This document shows positions 27,415-34,801 of a stretch of 35,593 bases of DNA, piece after piece. Numbering within the stretch: position 1 is the stretch's first letter; the number at the start of each line of letters is the position of its first letter. The stretch covers positions 1 through 35,593 of the forward strand of contig JAIESQ010000087.1 of assembly GCA_019745975.1 (NCBI GenBank), in the 5' to 3' direction. The stretch comes from Pirellulales bacterium. Lineage in GTDB: Bacteria; Planctomycetota; Planctomycetia; Pirellulales; JAEUIK01. Both the position numbers and the translations under genes were made by a program. Under the pieces are notes generated by a model that saw nothing but the letters and a program-made list of their open reading frames with translations, was not told where the DNA came from and did not search any database.

Positions 27415-28323
27415 TCACTTCATATCGAGCGAATCGGCCTGCCCCCACGGCATCGGCATCGTCGGCCGCGCGGCGTGGTTCTCCTTGCGTCTGGGAGCGG
27501 GCACGGCGTGCCATTCGGTGATGAACTCGCCAAGCCGGCTGACTGCTTCTTCAAACGCGCGGCGCCCCTTCTCAGCCGTGGCCAGAGCCGCCGCGCCCAT
27601 CACGCCCGTGTCGGTATAGCTGGCGGTCCAACTCGTCACGTCGACCGGTCCGCTCCCGAACAGATCGACGTAACGGAACTTCGACTTCTCGGCGTGGAAC
27701 GAATACTGCCCCGAGCGGATGCGCTCTTTCCGCACGTCGTCAGGGGCCAGGTGCAAGTAGACGCTCGTTTCCAATTCGCAGGCGTGCGCGATCCCGCCTG
27801 GAAACTCGCTCTCGCGCCAGTTCGGCAAGAACTGCGGATCGACCGTCAAAAACCGCCACCAGCCGGTGAAGCCGCACTCGGCGTCGGTCTCGAGGTTCAC
27901 GCGCCGGGCGACGAGGTCGAGGTTCGGCATGTTCGAGCCGTGCCCGTTCAACAACAGCATCTTCTTGAAGCCGTGATAGGCCAGGCTTTTGCAGACGTCG
28001 AGCGTGTGCTCGATGAAGTGCGTGTAGTGGATGTTGATCGTGCCGGGGAAATCCATCACGTGCCCGGTGTATCCGTACGACAACGGCGGCAGCACCAGCG
28101 CCTTGTCGGCCACGCGCGCGCCGGCCGCCAGGGCCACGCTCGTCGACAGCAACATGTCGACATCCAGCGGCAAGTGCGGCCCGTGTTGTTCGATCGCTCC
28201 GACTGGGATGATGGGGATCTTGCCGGCCTTGATCGCCAGATTGATCTCCGGCCAGGTGAGTTTTTCGTAGCGATGCTCGCGCAGGCTCTCGGGCGAGGGA
28301 TCGGGGACGGCATCGGGCGCCAT
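27415..28323 (-). CDS. Creatininase family protein
   Basis: A 302-residue metal-dependent amidohydrolase of the creatininase family, whose members cleave cyclic amides such as creatinine or act on formamide-type pathway intermediates. The metal-binding motifs are present: GAIEQHGPHLPLDVDM (Glu, His and Asp) at about residues 42-57, LNGHGSN (His), and the Glu in ELETS. TGHVMDFPGTI and FHAEKSKF are further typical segments. The ATG at 28323 gives MAPDAVPDPSPES with a charged start; an in-frame ATG at 28500 would add 59 residues with no likeness and would overlap the divergent gene. It is convergent with the DUF1501 gene and divergent from the FAD monooxygenase. The exact substrate is unknown. 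Confidence 0.9.
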   Translation of the reverse strand: MAPDAVPDPSPESLREHRYEKLTWPEINLAIKAGKIPIIPVGAIEQHGPHLPLDVDMLLSTSVALAAGARVADKALVLPPLSYGYTGHVMDFPGTINIHYTHFIEHTLDVCKSLAYHGFKKMLLLNGHGSNMPNLDLVARRVNLETDAECGFTGWWRFLTVDPQFLPNWRESEFPGGIAHACELETSVYLHLAPDDVRKERIRSGQYSFHAEKSKFRYVDLFGSGPVDVTSWTASYTDTGVMGAAALATAEKGRRAFEEAVSRLGEFITEWHAVPAPRRKENHAARPTMPMPWGQADSLDMK

Positions 28324-28464
28324 GGTGGTTGCGACTCCGCGGTAATGCTGGGTGGTGATCTCGTGCGGCGGACAACGGATGAGCAAGCTCTGGCCTGCCG
28401 CAACCGCGATTAGATACTTGGCGTCGTCAGAAGCAAGCTGCTGAGCGTAGAATGCCGGCCAGCT

Positions 28465-28481
28465 TAGGAGGCGGGACCATG
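28465..28481 (+). promoter_or_regulatory. Strong ribosome binding site for the FAD monooxygenase
   Basis: TAGGAGG at 28465-28471 is seven bases before the ATG at 28479-28481. It favours this start over the in-frame ATG at 28452, whose product would have nine extra residues encoded across the ribosome site itself. Confidence 0.75.
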
Positions 28482-29753
28482 ACCACGGATGGCAATTCAC
28501 CCACGTCCGCTCATCAAACGCCCGGCGACCTGCCGGCGTCGGCGTGCTGCGCGATCGCCGGCGGCGGCCCGGCCGGCATGATGCTCGGCGTGCTGCTGGC
28601 GCGGGCCGGCGTCGACGTGCTCGTGCTGGAAAAGCACGCCGACTTCTTGCGCGATTTCCGCGGCGACACGATTCACCCGTCGACGCTTGAATTGATGTAC
28701 GAGCTCGGCTGGCTCGACGAACTGCTCACGCTGCCGCACCAAAAAGTGACGCAAGTTCGCGGCCAGATCGGCGACGAGACGCTCACGGTCGGCGACTTCA
28801 CGCACTTGCCCACGCACGCCAAGTTCATTGCCTTCATGCCGCAGTGGGATTTTCTGAACTTCCTCGCGCGGAAAGGGGCGCACTACCCGACGTTCCATCT
28901 GCGATTGCGCGCGGAAGTGACCGGGCTCGTCGAACGGGATGGCCGCGTTGCCGGTCTGCACGTCAACACGCCGACCGGCCCGCGCGAAGTGCAGGCGGAA
29001 CTGATCGTGGGGGCCGACGGGCGCGGCTCGATCGTTCGCCAAAGCGCCGGGTTGGAGATCGAAGATCTCGGCGCGCCGATGGACGTGCTCTGGCTGCGAT
29101 TGCCGCGCCGCCACGATGATCCGTACACGCCGCTGGGGCGCTTCGACCGCGGTCGTGTCTTCGTGCTCCTCAATCGCGATGACTACTGGCAGTGCGGCTA
29201 CGTGATCGCCAAGGGGACCGCCGCCACGCTGCGCGCCGCGGGCCTCGCAGCCTTTCGCGCCTCGATCGCCCAGCTCGTGCCGTGGATGGCCGACCGCGTC
29301 GACACGCTCACGAGTTGGGACGATGTCCATTTGCTGACCGTGCGCGTCGATCGCTTGAAGACGTGGCACCGGCCGGGTCTGTTGTGTATCGGCGACTCGG
29401 CGCACGCGATGTCGCCCGTCGGCGGGGTGGGCATTAACCTGGCGATTCAGGATGCCGTGGCCGCGGCCAACCTGCTCTACGAACCGTTGCTGGCAGGCCG
29501 CGTCACAGACGAGGACTTGCAGCGCGTGCAACAGCGCCGCGAGTGGCCCACCCGCGTCACGCAGCGCGTGCAGTTGTTCATTCAAGATCGCGCGATCTCC
29601 GGGGCGCTGTCGAGCGCCGGACCGCTCACGCCGCCGTGGCCGGTGCGGCTGCTCGGGCGGTTTCCGTATCTGCGCCGCTTCCCCGCCCGGCTGATGGGCA
29701 TGGGCGCTCGGCCCGAGCACATTCACACGCCGGATGCGTTTGCGGGGACGTAG
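28479..29753 (+). CDS. FAD-dependent monooxygenase (PHBH/UbiH-like)
   Basis: A 424-residue flavoprotein monooxygenase of the p-hydroxybenzoate hydroxylase class, which uses FAD and NAD(P)H to oxidise an aromatic or similar substrate. The Rossmann FAD motif is AGGGPAGMMLGVLLARAG at about residues 27-44, followed by VLEKHADFLRDFRGDTIHP. The second motif, VGADGRGSIVR, is near residue 180. The ribityl-binding motif GDSAHAMSPVGGVGINLAIQDA is near residue 305. Length and motif order fit the family. A short N-terminal extension (MTTDGNSPTSAHQ) has no visible function. The specific substrate is not predictable. It is convergent with the lactone oxidase gene across a REPIN. Confidence 0.9.
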   Translation: MTTDGNSPTSAHQTPGDLPASACCAIAGGGPAGMMLGVLLARAGVDVLVLEKHADFLRDFRGDTIHPSTLELMYELGWLDELLTLPHQKVTQVRGQIGDETLTVGDFTHLPTHAKFIAFMPQWDFLNFLARKGAHYPTFHLRLRAEVTGLVERDGRVAGLHVNTPTGPREVQAELIVGADGRGSIVRQSAGLEIEDLGAPMDVLWLRLPRRHDDPYTPLGRFDRGRVFVLLNRDDYWQCGYVIAKGTAATLRAAGLAAFRASIAQLVPWMADRVDTLTSWDDVHLLTVRVDRLKTWHRPGLLCIGDSAHAMSPVGGVGINLAIQDAVAAANLLYEPLLAGRVTDEDLQRVQQRREWPTRVTQRVQLFIQDRAISGALSSAGPLTPPWPVRLLGRFPYLRRFPARLMGMGARPEHIHTPDAFAGT

Positions 29754-29865: not shown

Positions 29866-31062
29866 CTACGCTTCGCCGACAACCCGCCGCAAGTGCTCGT
29901 TCAAGAAGCGCCCCGCCGGATCGATCCGCCGGCGCACTGCCATCGCGTCGTCCCAGCGTGGATAAAGTTCGCCGAGCTCGGCTGCCGAGAGCGTGTGAAT
30001 CTTGCCCCAGTGCGGCCGGCCATCGTAGCGACGAAAGATCGCTTCGACCGCCGCAAAGAACTTGGCGAACGGTCGGTCCGCGGCATCGTGCACCGAGATT
30101 GTCACCGTCTCGCGGCCATATGCCGGGCTCAACCAGATGTCGTCGGCCGCCAAGGTGCGATATTCAACCGGCCAAGTGACATCGGCGAACCGGTCACGCA
30201 TCAGACGCCGCACGTCGGCAAAACACTCCGGACCAGCCGCCGCGGGCAGCGCGTACTCAATCTCGTTGAAGCGGCGCTCGCGGACCGTCGGAAAAATCCG
30301 CCCGCTGTAGTCGACGCGCTCCCCCTCGCGCCCGGCCACGGCGGCCGGCTCTTCGTCGGTCGGGTCGAGCGCTTTCATGTGCGCCAGGTCGGTCGTCGGA
30401 TACCAGAAGAACTCGAAGTGCCGATGCGCGGCGATGTGCGTGGGCAGCTCGGCCAGGCAATCATCGATCGGCACTTGCCACAACCGCTCGTGCAGTCGGT
30501 AGGCCGGCAGCACGCGCAGCGTCACGGCCGTGATCACCCCTAGTATGCCGAATGACACCTGCGCTGCGCGAAACGCGCTGGCATCTGCCGCCGGCGAGCA
30601 ATCGACGAGCCGGCCATCGGCCGTCGCGATCCGCAGCGCCGCTACTTGGGTCGACAAACTGCCGAGCCGCGGACCGGTGCCATGCGTGCCGGTCGACACG
30701 GCGCCGGCCAGCGATTGCACGTCGACATCCCCTTGATTCTCCAGCGACCAGCCCGCTGCAAGCAACAGTTCCGTCGCCCGTGCGATCTTGGTGCCGGCCC
30801 AGAGCGTGGCGGTCGAAGCGACCGGATCGATTGCGATCAATCCCTGCAAATCGTCGAGCGAGAGGAGCACGTCGTCGGTCGCGCACAACGGCGTGAACGA
30901 GTGCCCCGTGCCGGTGACGCGAACCGTGCGATCGTTCGCGGAGGCCGCGCCGATCAACTCGAGCACGGCAGCTTCGCTTGCCGGCCGCGCGAGCTCGCGC
31001 GGTTGGCAGACGACCGAGCCCGACCAGTTTGTCCAACGAGCAGTCAACGTTGTCGCTTCCAC
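29866..31062 (-). CDS. D-arabinono-1,4-lactone oxidase family FAD protein
   Basis: A 398-residue flavoprotein of the sugar-lactone (aldono-lactone) oxidase family within the VAO/PCMH fold. Relatives oxidise L-gulono-, L-galactono- or D-arabinono-lactone, or act as alditol oxidases. The N-terminal FAD-binding domain shows VRVTGTGHSFTPL at about residues 47-59, with the His that is often the covalent flavin site, and later GAVSTGTHGTGPRLGSL. The C-terminal ALO domain has FEFFWYP and ends with the family motif PHWGKIH and a PAGRFLNEHLR segment. No signal peptide or membrane segment is seen, so it is probably cytoplasmic. The start is GTG at 31062. The substrate is uncertain. Confidence 0.9.
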   Translation of the reverse strand: MEATTLTARWTNWSGSVVCQPRELARPASEAAVLELIGAASANDRTVRVTGTGHSFTPLCATDDVLLSLDDLQGLIAIDPVASTATLWAGTKIARATELLLAAGWSLENQGDVDVQSLAGAVSTGTHGTGPRLGSLSTQVAALRIATADGRLVDCSPAADASAFRAAQVSFGILGVITAVTLRVLPAYRLHERLWQVPIDDCLAELPTHIAAHRHFEFFWYPTTDLAHMKALDPTDEEPAAVAGREGERVDYSGRIFPTVRERRFNEIEYALPAAAGPECFADVRRLMRDRFADVTWPVEYRTLAADDIWLSPAYGRETVTISVHDAADRPFAKFFAAVEAIFRRYDGRPHWGKIHTLSAAELGELYPRWDDAMAVRRRIDPAGRFLNEHLRRVVGEA

Positions 31063-31124: not shown

Positions 31125-32024
31125 TTATAGCCGCGCGGCGACTTCGCTCGCGTTCGGGCGATCAGTAGTCGGACAAAGCGTGCGTGCAAAGCCAAGCAGG
31201 TGATGCAGATTGTCACCGTAGGCCGAAAAGGTGAGGTCGCGGCGCACGTCTTCGCCAAGCGCCCGACCGCCGATCACCAACGCCGTGCCGCAACGCGTGG
31301 CGGCCGCGGCGATCAGCGCGACGGCCGCCGTCAGGTTCTGACGCGATTCGAATGCGGAGACGCTCAGCCAGACAAGCCGGGGCCTGGTCGTCTCGATCGC
31401 TGCCACGAGCGTCTCGGCCGGCAAGCCCGCCCCATACGACTGGGCCTGCCAGCCAGCGTCGCGCAGCACAAGCTCGACCATCGCCGTCGCGAGTTGGTAG
31501 GGATCTCCGGCCAGCGTACCGCCCATCGCGCTGGGAGCGTCGCGCTGCGGCCGCGGCAACAGCGCTGCCAATTCGAACAACAGACGCTGACAGATTTCGA
31601 CGGCGCGCCGCTCCTGATAAACGGCCAAAGTGCCGTTTTCCCAGCCGTGGCCGATCTTGGCAAACGCCGGAGCCAGCCAGCGATCGCAGACCTCGGCCAG
31701 CGACACCCCACCCAGGTAGGATTCCAGCACCACGCGTCGCAGTGCCAGGTCGTCGCCAGCGGTCAGGCTGGCGAGCACCGCCGCCGCTTGTTTGTCGAGT
31801 GTCGCCTTTCGTCCGCCACCCGCGACGAGCCCAATCAATTCGGGTCGAAGTAGCTGCTGACCCGTACTGCGAACGAACTTCACGACTGCGTCGATGGTGA
31901 GTCGTCGATGACCGCCTGCGGTCTTCTCGGTCTCAAGCAACCCCTTGTCGCACCAGCGTTTCAGCGACGACTCGCTGACGCCGATGGCCTGCGCGACCTG
32001 TTTGGGGGTGAACTGACGGGCCAT
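31125..32024 (-). CDS. MerR-type regulator with B12-binding-like domain (CarH/LitR family)
   Basis: A 299-residue transcription factor. The N-terminal MerR-type helix-turn-helix is at about 5-52 (FTPKQVAQAIGVSESSLKRWCDKGLL, then the wing with GGHRRL). A helical-bundle domain at about 75-155 and a Rossmann B12-binding-like domain at about 170-285 follow, the layout of the light-sensing CarH and LitR proteins. In those, adenosylcobalamin holds a tetramer on DNA until light breaks it. Here Trp128 and Glu138 of the bundle motif are present, but Arg139 replaces the His of the usual EH pair. Tyr176 in GDPYQLA takes the place of the lower-ligand His. Cobalamin binding is therefore doubtful, as for apo-acting relatives. 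It is transcribed away from a sigma factor and photolyase, the usual targets of such regulators. The ATG 32024 is chosen over the upstream in-frame ATG at 32096, which adds 24 unlike residues. Confidence 0.85.
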   Translation of the reverse strand: MARQFTPKQVAQAIGVSESSLKRWCDKGLLETEKTAGGHRRLTIDAVVKFVRSTGQQLLRPELIGLVAGGGRKATLDKQAAAVLASLTAGDDLALRRVVLESYLGGVSLAEVCDRWLAPAFAKIGHGWENGTLAVYQERRAVEICQRLLFELAALLPRPQRDAPSAMGGTLAGDPYQLATAMVELVLRDAGWQAQSYGAGLPAETLVAAIETTRPRLVWLSVSAFESRQNLTAAVALIAAAATRCGTALVIGGRALGEDVRRDLTFSAYGDNLHHLLGFARTLCPTTDRPNASEVAARL

Positions 32025-32060
32025 CCGATTTTGACTCAGTAAGTGAACGATATGATCGGA

Positions 32061-32089: not shown

Positions 32090-32154
32090 TCCCCATGAAT
32101 CACGCTAGTGTGGGATTTTTCTCGATTCTTATCCAATTATTCCCAGGCGATCGC

Positions 32155-32182
32155 TTGACGCCAGCGACAAGACCGCTACTAT
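32155..32182 (+). promoter_or_regulatory. Sigma-70-type promoter for the sigma factor gene
   Basis: TTGACG (32155-32160) and TACTAT (32177-32182) match the -35 and -10 consensus at five of six and four of six positions, with a 16-base spacer. The implied transcript starts near 32190 and gives a leader of about 35 bases before the ATG at 32225. It lies in the intergenic region shared with the CarH-like regulator gene. Confidence 0.65.
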
Positions 32183-32224
32183 CTGAATGAACGATTTGAA
32201 CGTTTCACTTCAAGTTGGATCGGA

Positions 32225-33223
32225 ATGCTTCGCATGATTTCCACCTGCTCGGATGCCCCCGGTGCTCAGCTTCGCGATCAGGCTCCAGCGCGGGCTGCTC
32301 GTTCCCAGGGACGCAAATCACGCCACGACCACGAACTCCAATGTCGCCGTGCGGCCCGACTTCGCGACCTGAAAATCGAGTTCGTCGCCGGTCCATTCGA
32401 TCGGCCCGGCGACGCCGAGCGGATCGAGAGCCTGCTCCCGCCAAACGGGACCAACCAATCTGCCTCGTGCGGCGCGACGACTCCACGACCCGCCGGCACG
32501 CGCGGTTACTTCGCCAGCCTGTACGAAACACCACTCCTCGCGCCCGACGAAGAGCGCTCGCTTTTTCGCCGGCTGAACTTCGTGAAGTCGCGGGCGGCCG
32601 ATCTGTGCGCCACCCTCGATCCGGACAAGCCCGACGTCCCTTTGATGGACGACATTGAACTCCTATTGGCTGAGGCCGACCGCGTCCGCAATCACATCTG
32701 GCGTGCGAATCTGCGGCTCGTGGTCTCGATCGCCAAGCGCTATGTCAACGCCGAAAACAGTCTGCCGGACCTCATCAGCGATGGCAACATGTCGCTCTTG
32801 CGGGCGATCGAGTGCTTCGATGTCTCGCGAGGGTATCGCTTCAGCACCTACGCGACCTGGGCGATTCGTAAGAACTTCCATCGCGCGATCACGCGGCTGC
32901 ATCGCGACCGAGCGCGCTTCCTCTCGGTAGATGAGTCGCTGCTGGCGACGAACCCCGACCGTGTGACGCCGATTGTGTCCACGCAGCACGCCGACGCCGT
33001 CCGGCAGTCGTTGGCCCAGCTTCTTGAACAATTGCCTGATCGCGAGCGACTCGTTGTCTCGGCGCGATTCGGTTTTGACGCCGGCGAACACCCCCAGACC
33101 TTGCAGCAGATCGCCGAGCGGCTGGGTGTCTGCAAGGAGCGGAGCCGTCAACTGCTGCTGCGAGCGCTGGCACGCTTGAAGACATTGGCAGTCGAAACCG
33201 GTCTGGAATCGCTCGAAACATGA
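32225..33223 (+). CDS. Sigma-70 family RNA polymerase sigma factor
   Basis: A 332-residue sigma-70 protein of the primary-like (group 2 or 3) type, not a short ECF factor. A poorly conserved basic N-terminus of about 90 residues precedes a region 1.2-like segment (YFASLYETPLLAPDEERSLF). Region 2 is complete: NLRLVVSIAKRYV, LPDLISDGNMSLLRAIECFD, and the -10-binding RGYRFSTYATWAIRK. Region 3 is short (around FLSVDESLL). Region 4 has LPDRERLVVSARFG and the helix-turn-helix TLQQIAERLGVCKERSRQL. It starts at ATG 32225, with GGATCGGA just upstream. It is divergent from the CarH-like regulator and 48 bases upstream of the photolyase. In actinomycetes a LitR-type regulator controls an adjacent sigma factor for light-induced genes; here a similar role is inferred. 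Confidence 0.93.
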   Translation: MLRMISTCSDAPGAQLRDQAPARAARSQGRKSRHDHELQCRRAARLRDLKIEFVAGPFDRPGDAERIESLLPPNGTNQSASCGATTPRPAGTRGYFASLYETPLLAPDEERSLFRRLNFVKSRAADLCATLDPDKPDVPLMDDIELLLAEADRVRNHIWRANLRLVVSIAKRYVNAENSLPDLISDGNMSLLRAIECFDVSRGYRFSTYATWAIRKNFHRAITRLHRDRARFLSVDESLLATNPDRVTPIVSTQHADAVRQSLAQLLEQLPDRERLVVSARFGFDAGEHPQTLQQIAERLGVCKERSRQLLLRALARLKTLAVETGLESLET

Positions 33224-33271: not shown

Positions 33272-34801
33272 ATGAGCGCTACGCCGGCGATCGTCTGGTT
33301 TCAGCAGGATCTTCGCGTCGAAGATCATCCGGCGCTTGAGGCCGCCGTGGCACGCGGCGGCTTCGTGATTCCCGTCTACATCCAGGCGCCTGGCGAAGCG
33401 GGTCGCTGGCCTCCTGGGGGAGCCGCGCGCTGGTGGTTGCACCAGTCGCTCGCGCGCCTGAGCGAATTGCTAGCAGCGCGCGGTTCGCGATTGATTCTGC
33501 GACAGGGCGAGTCGCTCGCTGAATTGCGCGAGATCGTCGCGGCAACGGGCGCCGACGCGATCCTTTGGAACCGTCGGATCGAGCCAGCGGCCGCGTCGCG
33601 CGATCAAGCGATCGCCGCTGCGCTGCGGTGCGATGGTCTGCGCGTCGGTGTCACCAACGGCAACTTGCTTTGGGACCCCGACAGTGTGCGCACGAGTTCG
33701 GGTCAGCCGTTTCGCGTCTTCACGCCGTTCTATCGGGCTTGCCTGGCGCACGAGCAGCCGCCCACACCAAGACCGGCGCCGGCGCGATTGGCGTCCCCCG
33801 CGAATTGGCCCGATTCGCTGCCGCTGGCGGCGTTGGAACTCGAACCAGCGATCGACTGGGCCGCGGGAATGCGAGCCGAGTGGAGTCCCGGAGAAGCCGG
33901 CGCTCAGGCACTTCTCGATCGCTTCGTAACGACCGCCATCGCCCAGTATCCCGAGCAGCGTGACATTCCGGCCGCAGCGGGCACGTCGTGGCTCTCGCCG
34001 TACTTGCACTTCGGAGAGATCAGCCCGCGACAACTCTGGCATGCGATCGCGCGTGCCGAGGTCGACGCAACCTCACGTCGCGGGCGCACTGCGACAACGC
34101 CATCCAATGGGAAAAACGCTTCGAACGCGTCGACCGTGGCCTTTCTCCGGCAACTCGTGTGGCGCGAATTCGCGCAGCACCTGCTGCATCATTTTCCCGA
34201 AACCGCCCAGCAGCCGCTGCGACCCGAGTTCGCCGGCTTCCCCGCCGAGGACGACCCCAAGGCGCTGCGCGCCTGGCAGCAGGGCCGCACCGGCTATCCC
34301 CTGGTCGACGCCGGCATGCGGCAACTCTGGTCGATCGGCTGGATGCACAACCGCGTGCGCATGGTCGTGGCCTCCTTTCTCGTCAAGCACTTGCTGATTC
34401 CCTGGCAGCGCGGCGCCGAGTGGTTCTGGGACACCCTGGTCGACGCCGACCTGGCGAACAACACGCTCGGCTGGCAGTGGGTCGCCGGCTGCGGCGCCGA
34501 CGCCGCGCCTTACTTCCGCATCTTCAATCCGGTAACGCAGTCCCAGCGATTCGACCCGGCGGGCGAATACATCCGCCGCTGGGTGCCCGAGCTGGCCGAG
34601 TTGTCCGACACGCAGATTCACGCGCCCTGGCAAGTGCCGCCGGAAGCGTTGCGGGCCGCCGGAGTGGTACTCGGCAAGACCTATCCGCGACCGATCGTGG
34701 AGCACACCGAAGCGCGCAGCCGCGCGCTGGCGGCACTGGCCGCGATGAAACACTTGCGACGAAAGACTAGCTCGCGGTCGCGCGGCAAGTTACCCTTGTG
34801 A
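33272..34801 (+). CDS. phrB: Deoxyribodipyrimidine photolyase
   Basis: A 509-residue photolyase of the cryptochrome/photolyase family, which repairs UV-induced cyclobutane pyrimidine dimers using FAD and blue light. The N-terminal antenna domain begins IVWFQQDLRVEDHPAL and includes ILWNRRIEP. The C-terminal FAD domain starts near SWLSPYLHFGEISPRQLWH and includes LVWREFAQHLL. The most conserved block follows: GRTGYPLVDAGMRQLW, then WMHNRVRMVVASFLVKHLL, and later NNTLGWQWVAGCGADAAPYFRIFNP. These support the class I CPD photolyase type. The ATG at 33272 gives MSATPAIVWFQQDL, a normal start. It is closely linked to the sigma gene and is probably co-transcribed with it, so its expression is likely controlled by the light-type regulator. 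Confidence 0.95.
   Translation: MSATPAIVWFQQDLRVEDHPALEAAVARGGFVIPVYIQAPGEAGRWPPGGAARWWLHQSLARLSELLAARGSRLILRQGESLAELREIVAATGADAILWNRRIEPAAASRDQAIAAALRCDGLRVGVTNGNLLWDPDSVRTSSGQPFRVFTPFYRACLAHEQPPTPRPAPARLASPANWPDSLPLAALELEPAIDWAAGMRAEWSPGEAGAQALLDRFVTTAIAQYPEQRDIPAAAGTSWLSPYLHFGEISPRQLWHAIARAEVDATSRRGRTATTPSNGKNASNASTVAFLRQLVWREFAQHLLHHFPETAQQPLRPEFAGFPAEDDPKALRAWQQGRTGYPLVDAGMRQLWSIGWMHNRVRMVVASFLVKHLLIPWQRGAEWFWDTLVDADLANNTLGWQWVAGCGADAAPYFRIFNPVTQSQRFDPAGEYIRRWVPELAELSDTQIHAPWQVPPEALRAAGVVLGKTYPRPIVEHTEARSRALAALAAMKHLRRKTSSRSRGKLPL

Follow-up and report, generated by a model that had tools for sequence, protein, structure and literature searches.

A conserved planctomycete clade of CarH-like regulators carries tyrosine in place of the lower cobalt-ligand histidine

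The DNA analysed here, hereafter the window, is a stretch of 35,593 nucleotides from a Pirellulales bacterium (contig JAIESQ010000087.1), and its relevant features are collected in Table 1. It includes an open reading frame of 299 amino acids in which the Pfam families MerR, B12-binding_2 and B12-binding each score above cut-off; its start codon was favoured over an upstream ATG at 32096 because conservation within the family begins at about residue 5. The AF2 model of the protein (pLDDT 91.5) matched structure 8JBS (Z 26.1), the photocobilins (Z about 24), the SCHIC domain of AppA (Z 19.8) and TtCarH, the CarH protein of Thermus thermophilus (Z 19.3), and Pfam, the model and the structure alignment agree on the CarH architecture, i.e., a MerR-type DNA-binding domain followed by a cobalamin-binding fold. 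The score against the NCBIfam CarH equivalog is 40.2 bits versus a cut-off of 400 bits, and that of the DNA-binding domain against the BldC model is 33 versus 77, with similarity to BldC structures of the PDB being evident.

Table 1. Features of the window in and around the CarH-like regulator gene
Feature	Position	Strand	Evidence or remark
CDS, 299 aa: BldC/MerR-type HTH, four-helix bundle and Rossmann cobalamin-binding-type domain	31125..32024	-	ATG at 32024
Winged-HTH DNA-binding domain, residues 5-54, invariant KRWCDxG...T-GGHRR	31863..32012	-	Pfam MerR/HTH_17; NCBIfam BldC 3.8e-8; PDB BldC 6ama/6amk
Four-helix bundle (B12-binding_2), residues 74-155, W128-x9-E138-R139	31560..31805	-	Pfam, AF2 model, structure match
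Rossmann domain, residues 163-286 (D-x-Y, SxS, GG, GxxxP)	31167..31538	-	Pfam, AF2 model, structure match, conservation
Glu138-Arg139 codons, E-R where CarH has E141-H142	31608..31613	-	Alignment, conservation
Asp174-Pro175-Tyr176, Tyr replacing lower axial ligand His177	31497..31505	-	Alignment, conservation
Trp219, aromatic residue specific to the clade, 2 residues ahead of SxS (tail pocket), paired with Gly168	31368..31370	-	Conservation; predicted geometry
Candidate distal operator ACGTTCAAATCGTTCA (direct repeats of 9 bp in tandem)	32188..32203	-	No other perfect match in the genome (7 Mb)
Proximal operator candidate CCGATCATATCGTTCA, 2 mismatches	32044..32059	-	20 bp upstream of start codon
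Sigma-70-type promoter-like TTGACG-16-TACTAT for divergent gene	32155..32182	+	Distal operator candidate begins 5 bp after -10 box
Sigma-70 family factor (regions 2 and 4), divergent, probable target	32225..33223	+	Pairing also seen in many relatives
DNA photolyase, probably downstream in same regulon	33272..34801	+	Photolyase near regulator in 13/83 non-identical loci

The best solved relative by both sequence and structure is CtMerR from Chloracidobacterium thermophilum (8JBS/8JBT, PMC11796333), a cobalamin-binding domain protein with a KRW-type MerR domain and the same cobalamin-binding fold (HMMER E-value 3.6e-26, and 3.2e-43 with the family profile); TtCarH is more distant in sequence searches (0.011 and 3.3e-5, respectively). 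The preliminary description of this gene had pointed to Trp128, Glu138, Arg139 and Tyr176 as the residues at the cobalamin-pocket positions, and all four are read directly from the translation where it had placed them. Alignment with CtMerR and TtCarH, which at the sequence level is unambiguous, equates them with W131, E141, H142 and H177 of TtCarH, respectively. Where CarH proteins display the Wx9EH motif, the window protein reads Wx9E-R, with Trp128 and Glu138 present and the His changed to Arg139; where they display the D/ExH lower-ligand motif, it reads D174-P-Y176, with Tyr instead of His. The classic signature D/ExHx2Gx41SxT/Vx22-27GG is found here as D-P-Y-x2-A-x41-S-V-S-x28-GG, with the x41 spacing to S221-V-S223 and the G252-G253 pair retained. 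H177 of TtCarH ligates cobalt from the lower side, and H142, within Wx9EH, contacts the upper adenosyl group (PMC9304148). Consequently, the earlier claim that both cobalamin ligands are replaced holds for Tyr176, which occupies the cobalt-ligand position, but not for Arg139, which occupies that of the adenosyl contact; judged by the alignment, one cobalt ligand and one adenosyl-contact residue have been exchanged. CtMerR, in contrast, has E-H, coordinates cobalt through H204 and is an AdoCbl-binding protein responsive to green light, whereas the window protein has E-R, Tyr176 and the Trp219/Gly168 pair.

The second, light-state ligand of TtCarH, H132, aligns with Glu129 of the window protein. 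This change says little, because the position already varies in working photoreceptors: CtMerR has Arg there and is still functional (PMC11796333). A substitute His ligand was also sought near the pocket in the family alignment, and no conserved His was found; H126 and position 130 vary, which ruled them out as replacements.

A scan of the window protein against one genome per species (84,980 genomes) returned 27 relatives by the search method used, and wherever their titles name a group, it is the planctomycetes. When 392 Planctomycetota genomes were searched with a profile, 105 matched at E <= 1e-15, with weaker matches corresponding to other cobalamin-domain proteins. Two Planctomycetota subgroups were recognized: A, which includes the window protein and displays E-R plus Tyr, and B, displaying E-H plus Tyr. 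Within subgroup A, R139 and Y176 occur in 57/60 and 55/60 sequences, more than expected by chance, along with E138 (58/60) and W128 (55/60); in subgroup B, H139 is found in all 33 sequences and Y176 in 26 of them. Hence the His to Tyr exchange is common to both subgroups, and the His to Arg exchange is restricted to A. A maximum-likelihood tree, built without columns 139 and 176, included as outgroups CtMerR, TtCarH, sequences from Rhizobium, Azoarcus, Nonomuraea and Skermanella, and two canonical planctomycete sequences, all of which have EH and His. The clade was split from the outgroups with a support of 99, and subgroup B received 98, in what is a quick tree with many open forks and long branches; CtMerR was the nearest outgroup. 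Taken together, the tree and the outgroup residues imply a His to Tyr exchange at the base of the clade and a His to Arg exchange within subgroup A. A plasmid collection searched for relatives contained canonical outgroups only and none close to the family, and a literature search returned no description of this planctomycete family.

On this sequence evidence, the family is a conserved clade and not a product of decay. That a CarH copy degenerated and its ligand residues drifted by chance is hardly credible: individual members do vary at position 176, but R139, Y176 and the pocket are conserved throughout the clade, and this, together with a conserved operator motif (see below), excludes neutral drift for the family, so that the explanation was rejected. 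At position 176, four divergent members (L027, L076, L095 and L098) have His, and others Ser, Asp or Leu. The four are scattered and keep Trp219 along with the His, and they are possible reversions. Given His in a few members, position 176 may still serve as a metal-ligand site. Degraded pockets were observed in a few members (L026, the second copy of L061, and L102). Two loci carry two family genes: in L083:4042-6043 (G158) they are in tandem, and the second copy, from which the W, E, D and Y of the pocket are gone (I, D, R, S, D), is a naturally pocket-less paralogue of its complete neighbour; in L071:3947-5817 (G050), two subgroup B members are adjacent and in opposite directions.

Among the 213 domain columns, the 25 with the highest conservation in subgroup A include G198 and P202 (GxxxP), G252-G253, E138, R139, D174, G125 (GxxW), S221 and Y176. 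The remaining pocket elements (GxxW, E, D174, GxxxP, SxS and GG) are highly conserved as well, which argues that a ligand still binds, and by this measure the pocket is still under selection. Further, Trp219 is present in 59/60 sequences of A and 32/34 of B, and Gly168 in 59/60 and 34/34, respectively, while position 219 is small or aliphatic in every canonical sequence aligned. Since Trp219 stands two residues before the SxS motif, which faces the nucleotide tail in B12 proteins, it probably narrows the nucleotide-tail pocket.

These observations bear on the possibility of a cofactor-free repressor under the control of a partner protein, in which the old B12 pocket would persist only as a structural or oligomerisation core. 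Such CarH relatives exist, namely class II LitR with a short LOV protein in Pseudomonas and CarA with CarS in Myxococcus (PMC9758184, PMC8156234), which control light genes without needing B12; the loss of both His residues and the few members with degraded pockets would suit this explanation. Nevertheless, E138, R139, D174, G198, P202, G252, G253, S221 and W128 are among the most conserved columns, unlike class II LitR, in which only the four-helix bundle is recognisable and the similarity to the B12 Rossmann domain is lost, whereas the Rossmann domain of the window protein scores above the Pfam cut-off. CarA of Myxococcus xanthus keeps DxH and EH and has lost the Trp (PMC9304148), and the window protein displays the reverse pattern. 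Furthermore, no LOV, BLUF or CarS-like gene was recurrent among the identified neighbour clusters, which also speaks against a partner of this kind. We thus regard cofactor-free control as unlikely, though as a serious contender. Of the interpretation offered in the preliminary description, a non-standard use of cobalamin is strengthened by the clade-wide exchange, the lack of a conserved substitute His and the Trp219/Gly168 pair by the SxS motif; its suggestion of a cofactor-free protein like CarA fits less well, given the reversed pattern and the conserved pocket.

Regarding cofactor supply, B12-binding_2 occurs in the host genome only in MetH and the window protein, and a second canonical CarH was accordingly not found there. 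The host has MetH, and its adenosyltransferase is of the PduO type, BtuR being absent; the PduO-type enzyme is also present in 37 of the 38 relatives tested. AdoCbl is therefore generally available, its absence cannot explain the residue changes, and a lack of AdoCbl in the host was rejected as proof of B12-independence. Only one of 39 genomes (G003) lacks both adenosyltransferase families (PF01923 and PF02572). This genome (loci L030/L125; same family, 99% complete) has a normal subgroup A gene and MetH-size B12 proteins.

A true cobalamin photoreceptor with altered coordination, in which cobalamin is bound base-on or has Tyr176 or a water molecule at its lower face and is still photolysed by green light, would be in line with the available adenosyltransferase, the retained GxxW, E, GxxxP, SxS and GG elements, and the His found at position 176 in four divergent members; the light-state ligand of TtCarH is not conserved in other photoreceptors (PMC11796333). 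However, H177, E141 and H142 are reported as the key residues for AdoCbl in CarH, and HaAI-2E, whose cobalamin-binding domain has Arg at the H177 position, bound OHCbl but neither AdoCbl nor MeCbl (PMC11796333), a precedent for AdoCbl binding being lost while some cobalamin binding is retained. The probable narrowing of the tail pocket by Trp219 and the almost complete G003 genome, with the gene and neither of the two adenosyltransferase families, further weigh against it, and we consider this coordination rather improbable.

Heme sites often contain Tyr and Arg, and Arg139 together with Tyr176 would suit a carboxylate-bearing tetrapyrrole, so that a heme, porphyrin or bilin sensor responding to redox state, singlet oxygen or light can be envisaged. 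The AppA SCHIC domain (4HEH), among the closest solved folds, has a link to light regulation and binds heme in the same fold without cobalamin (PMC9144470), and the neighbours of the planctomycete genes are photo-oxidative stress genes. On the other hand, the likeness to SCHIC is here an overall fold match only: AppA is fused to BLUF, its heme-ligating His is elsewhere, shifted by two residues, and other loops differ too, with an 8-residue loop blocking cobalamin. Moreover, Trp128 and Glu138 are kept in the window protein as in B12 proteins. Taking both sides into account, a tetrapyrrole sensor seems to us quite improbable.

The upstream regions of the family genes have in common a strong motif, AAATTCGTTCAAATCGTTCA, composed of tandem 9-bp direct repeats, with frequent positions around -215, -158 and -28 relative to the start codon. 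Sequences within 1 mismatch of WCGTTCAWWWCGTTCA were found in 29/55 upstream regions of subgroup A and 13/33 of subgroup B, whereas shuffled sequences gave 0.1 and 0, respectively, and control stretches elsewhere in the loci 0/70; a clear copy is absent from about half of the upstream regions. It is also present in loci without an adjacent sigma gene (14/36 in A and 12/31 in B), and this, along with its tandem repeat structure, makes it unlikely to be a -35 box of the adjacent sigma factor. Across loci, 33 of 66 distal copies follow a -10-like box (18.8 expected), with gaps clustered at 4-6 bp, a position just after the box that suits a repressor; proximal copies showed no excess of -10 boxes (9 vs 11.4 expected). 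A genome-wide regulon search by motif was mostly uninformative (46 sites with 2 mismatches or fewer, vs 22 in the control), and only the window site was perfect. BldC, whose winged HTH resembles that of the window protein, binds head-to-tail direct repeats of 9 bp that follow the pattern AATTXXXX(C) (PMC5859096), although it consists of a DNA-binding domain alone, without a sensor domain. The CarH operator, in turn, has 11-bp repeats, nnnnTnnACAn (PMC9304148), and the period of the conserved motif is 9 bp (TCGTTCAAA). The AAATTCGTTCAAATCGTTCA repeats are the probable operator of window-type regulators, and their co-location with the genes suggests that the window protein binds the candidate copies. 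TtCarH (5C8D) shares with the window protein the domain order, the W and E of Wx9EH, GxxxP, GG and a photolyase neighbour, and differs in His142 and His177, both replaced here, and in its 11-bp repeats, as opposed to the BldC-like DNA-binding domain and probable 9-bp operator of the window protein.

In 83 non-identical loci, the commonest neighbours encode sigma-70 factors (19), photolyases (13), FAD amine oxidases (13) and CFA synthases (12), followed by fasciclin (10), DUF1731 epimerase (10) and DUF1365 proteins (7). A photolyase gene also adjoins that of TtCarH on pTT27, and an Azoarcus MerR-CBD gene is adjoined by an FAD oxidoreductase/DUF1365/CFA trio. The recurrent neighbours and these parallels support a light or photo-oxidative-stress regulon.

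Building on the fold, the residue exchanges, the clade, the motif and the gene neighbourhood, all of which are read from the sequences, we propose that the window protein is an autorepressor of photoprotection genes that follows a CarH-like logic without base-off/His-on AdoCbl chemistry, its pocket most likely holding another ligand or a differently held corrinoid; we assign this reading a probability of roughly 0.55. Its BldC-like winged HTH would bind the tandem 9-bp direct repeats and block transcription from the promoters of the regulator gene itself and of a divergent photoprotection operon (here the sigma-70 factor and the photolyase; in relatives genes for fasciclin, FAD amine oxidase, CFA synthase, DUF1365 protein or epimerase). 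Release of the repressor would be triggered by light or photo-oxidative stress, through a route other than AdoCbl photolysis of the CarH type. We infer repression, the light response, loss of His-on AdoCbl binding and retention of a ligand, with the cobalt-ligating His presumably changed to Tyr in the clade ancestor, the adenosyl-side His changed to Arg in subgroup A, and Trp219/Gly168 arising beside the tail pocket; the ligand might be a corrinoid held in a different manner, a tetrapyrrole or some other chromophore. The window protein thus appears CarH-like in architecture and gene context, and probably in logic, yet departs from CarH in two defining motifs and apparently in its operator. That such proteins act phylum-wide as light or photo-oxidative regulators in which the CarH fold carries another ligand in place of B12 photochemistry (e.g., a Tyr-coordinated corrinoid, porphyrin, heme or bilin), with Trp219 filling the tail pocket and a BldC-type 9-bp-repeat operator, is a more tentative proposal, possible but doubtful in its entirety.

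CarH serves as the paradigm of light sensing through B12: it binds AdoCbl, and its oligomeric state and DNA binding change in the light. Light control by window-type regulators probably proceeds in a way not described before. Here, a large natural clade keeps the pocket while its cobalt His is exchanged for Tyr, with both steps, E-H plus Tyr and then E-R plus Tyr, represented in living species; the clade therefore offers a ready test of which residues light sensing needs and of whether the fold can carry another chromophore, as well as a specific operator and regulon predicted to serve light responses in Planctomycetota.

On the other side of the regulator gene, the window encodes an FAD enzyme of the D-arabinono-1,4-lactone oxidase type (29866-31062, minus strand), an FAD-binding monooxygenase (28452-29753, plus strand) and a creatininase-family protein (27415-28500, minus strand), and no connection of these three to the regulator was found. 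Elsewhere, plasmid pTH2c of Rhizobium sp. TH2 carries a MerR plus cobalamin-domain gene (L126:3980-4765), for which no gene is listed in the plasmid annotation; it has canonical EEH and GERH and lies beside fasciclin, a frequent neighbour of the planctomycete family as well.
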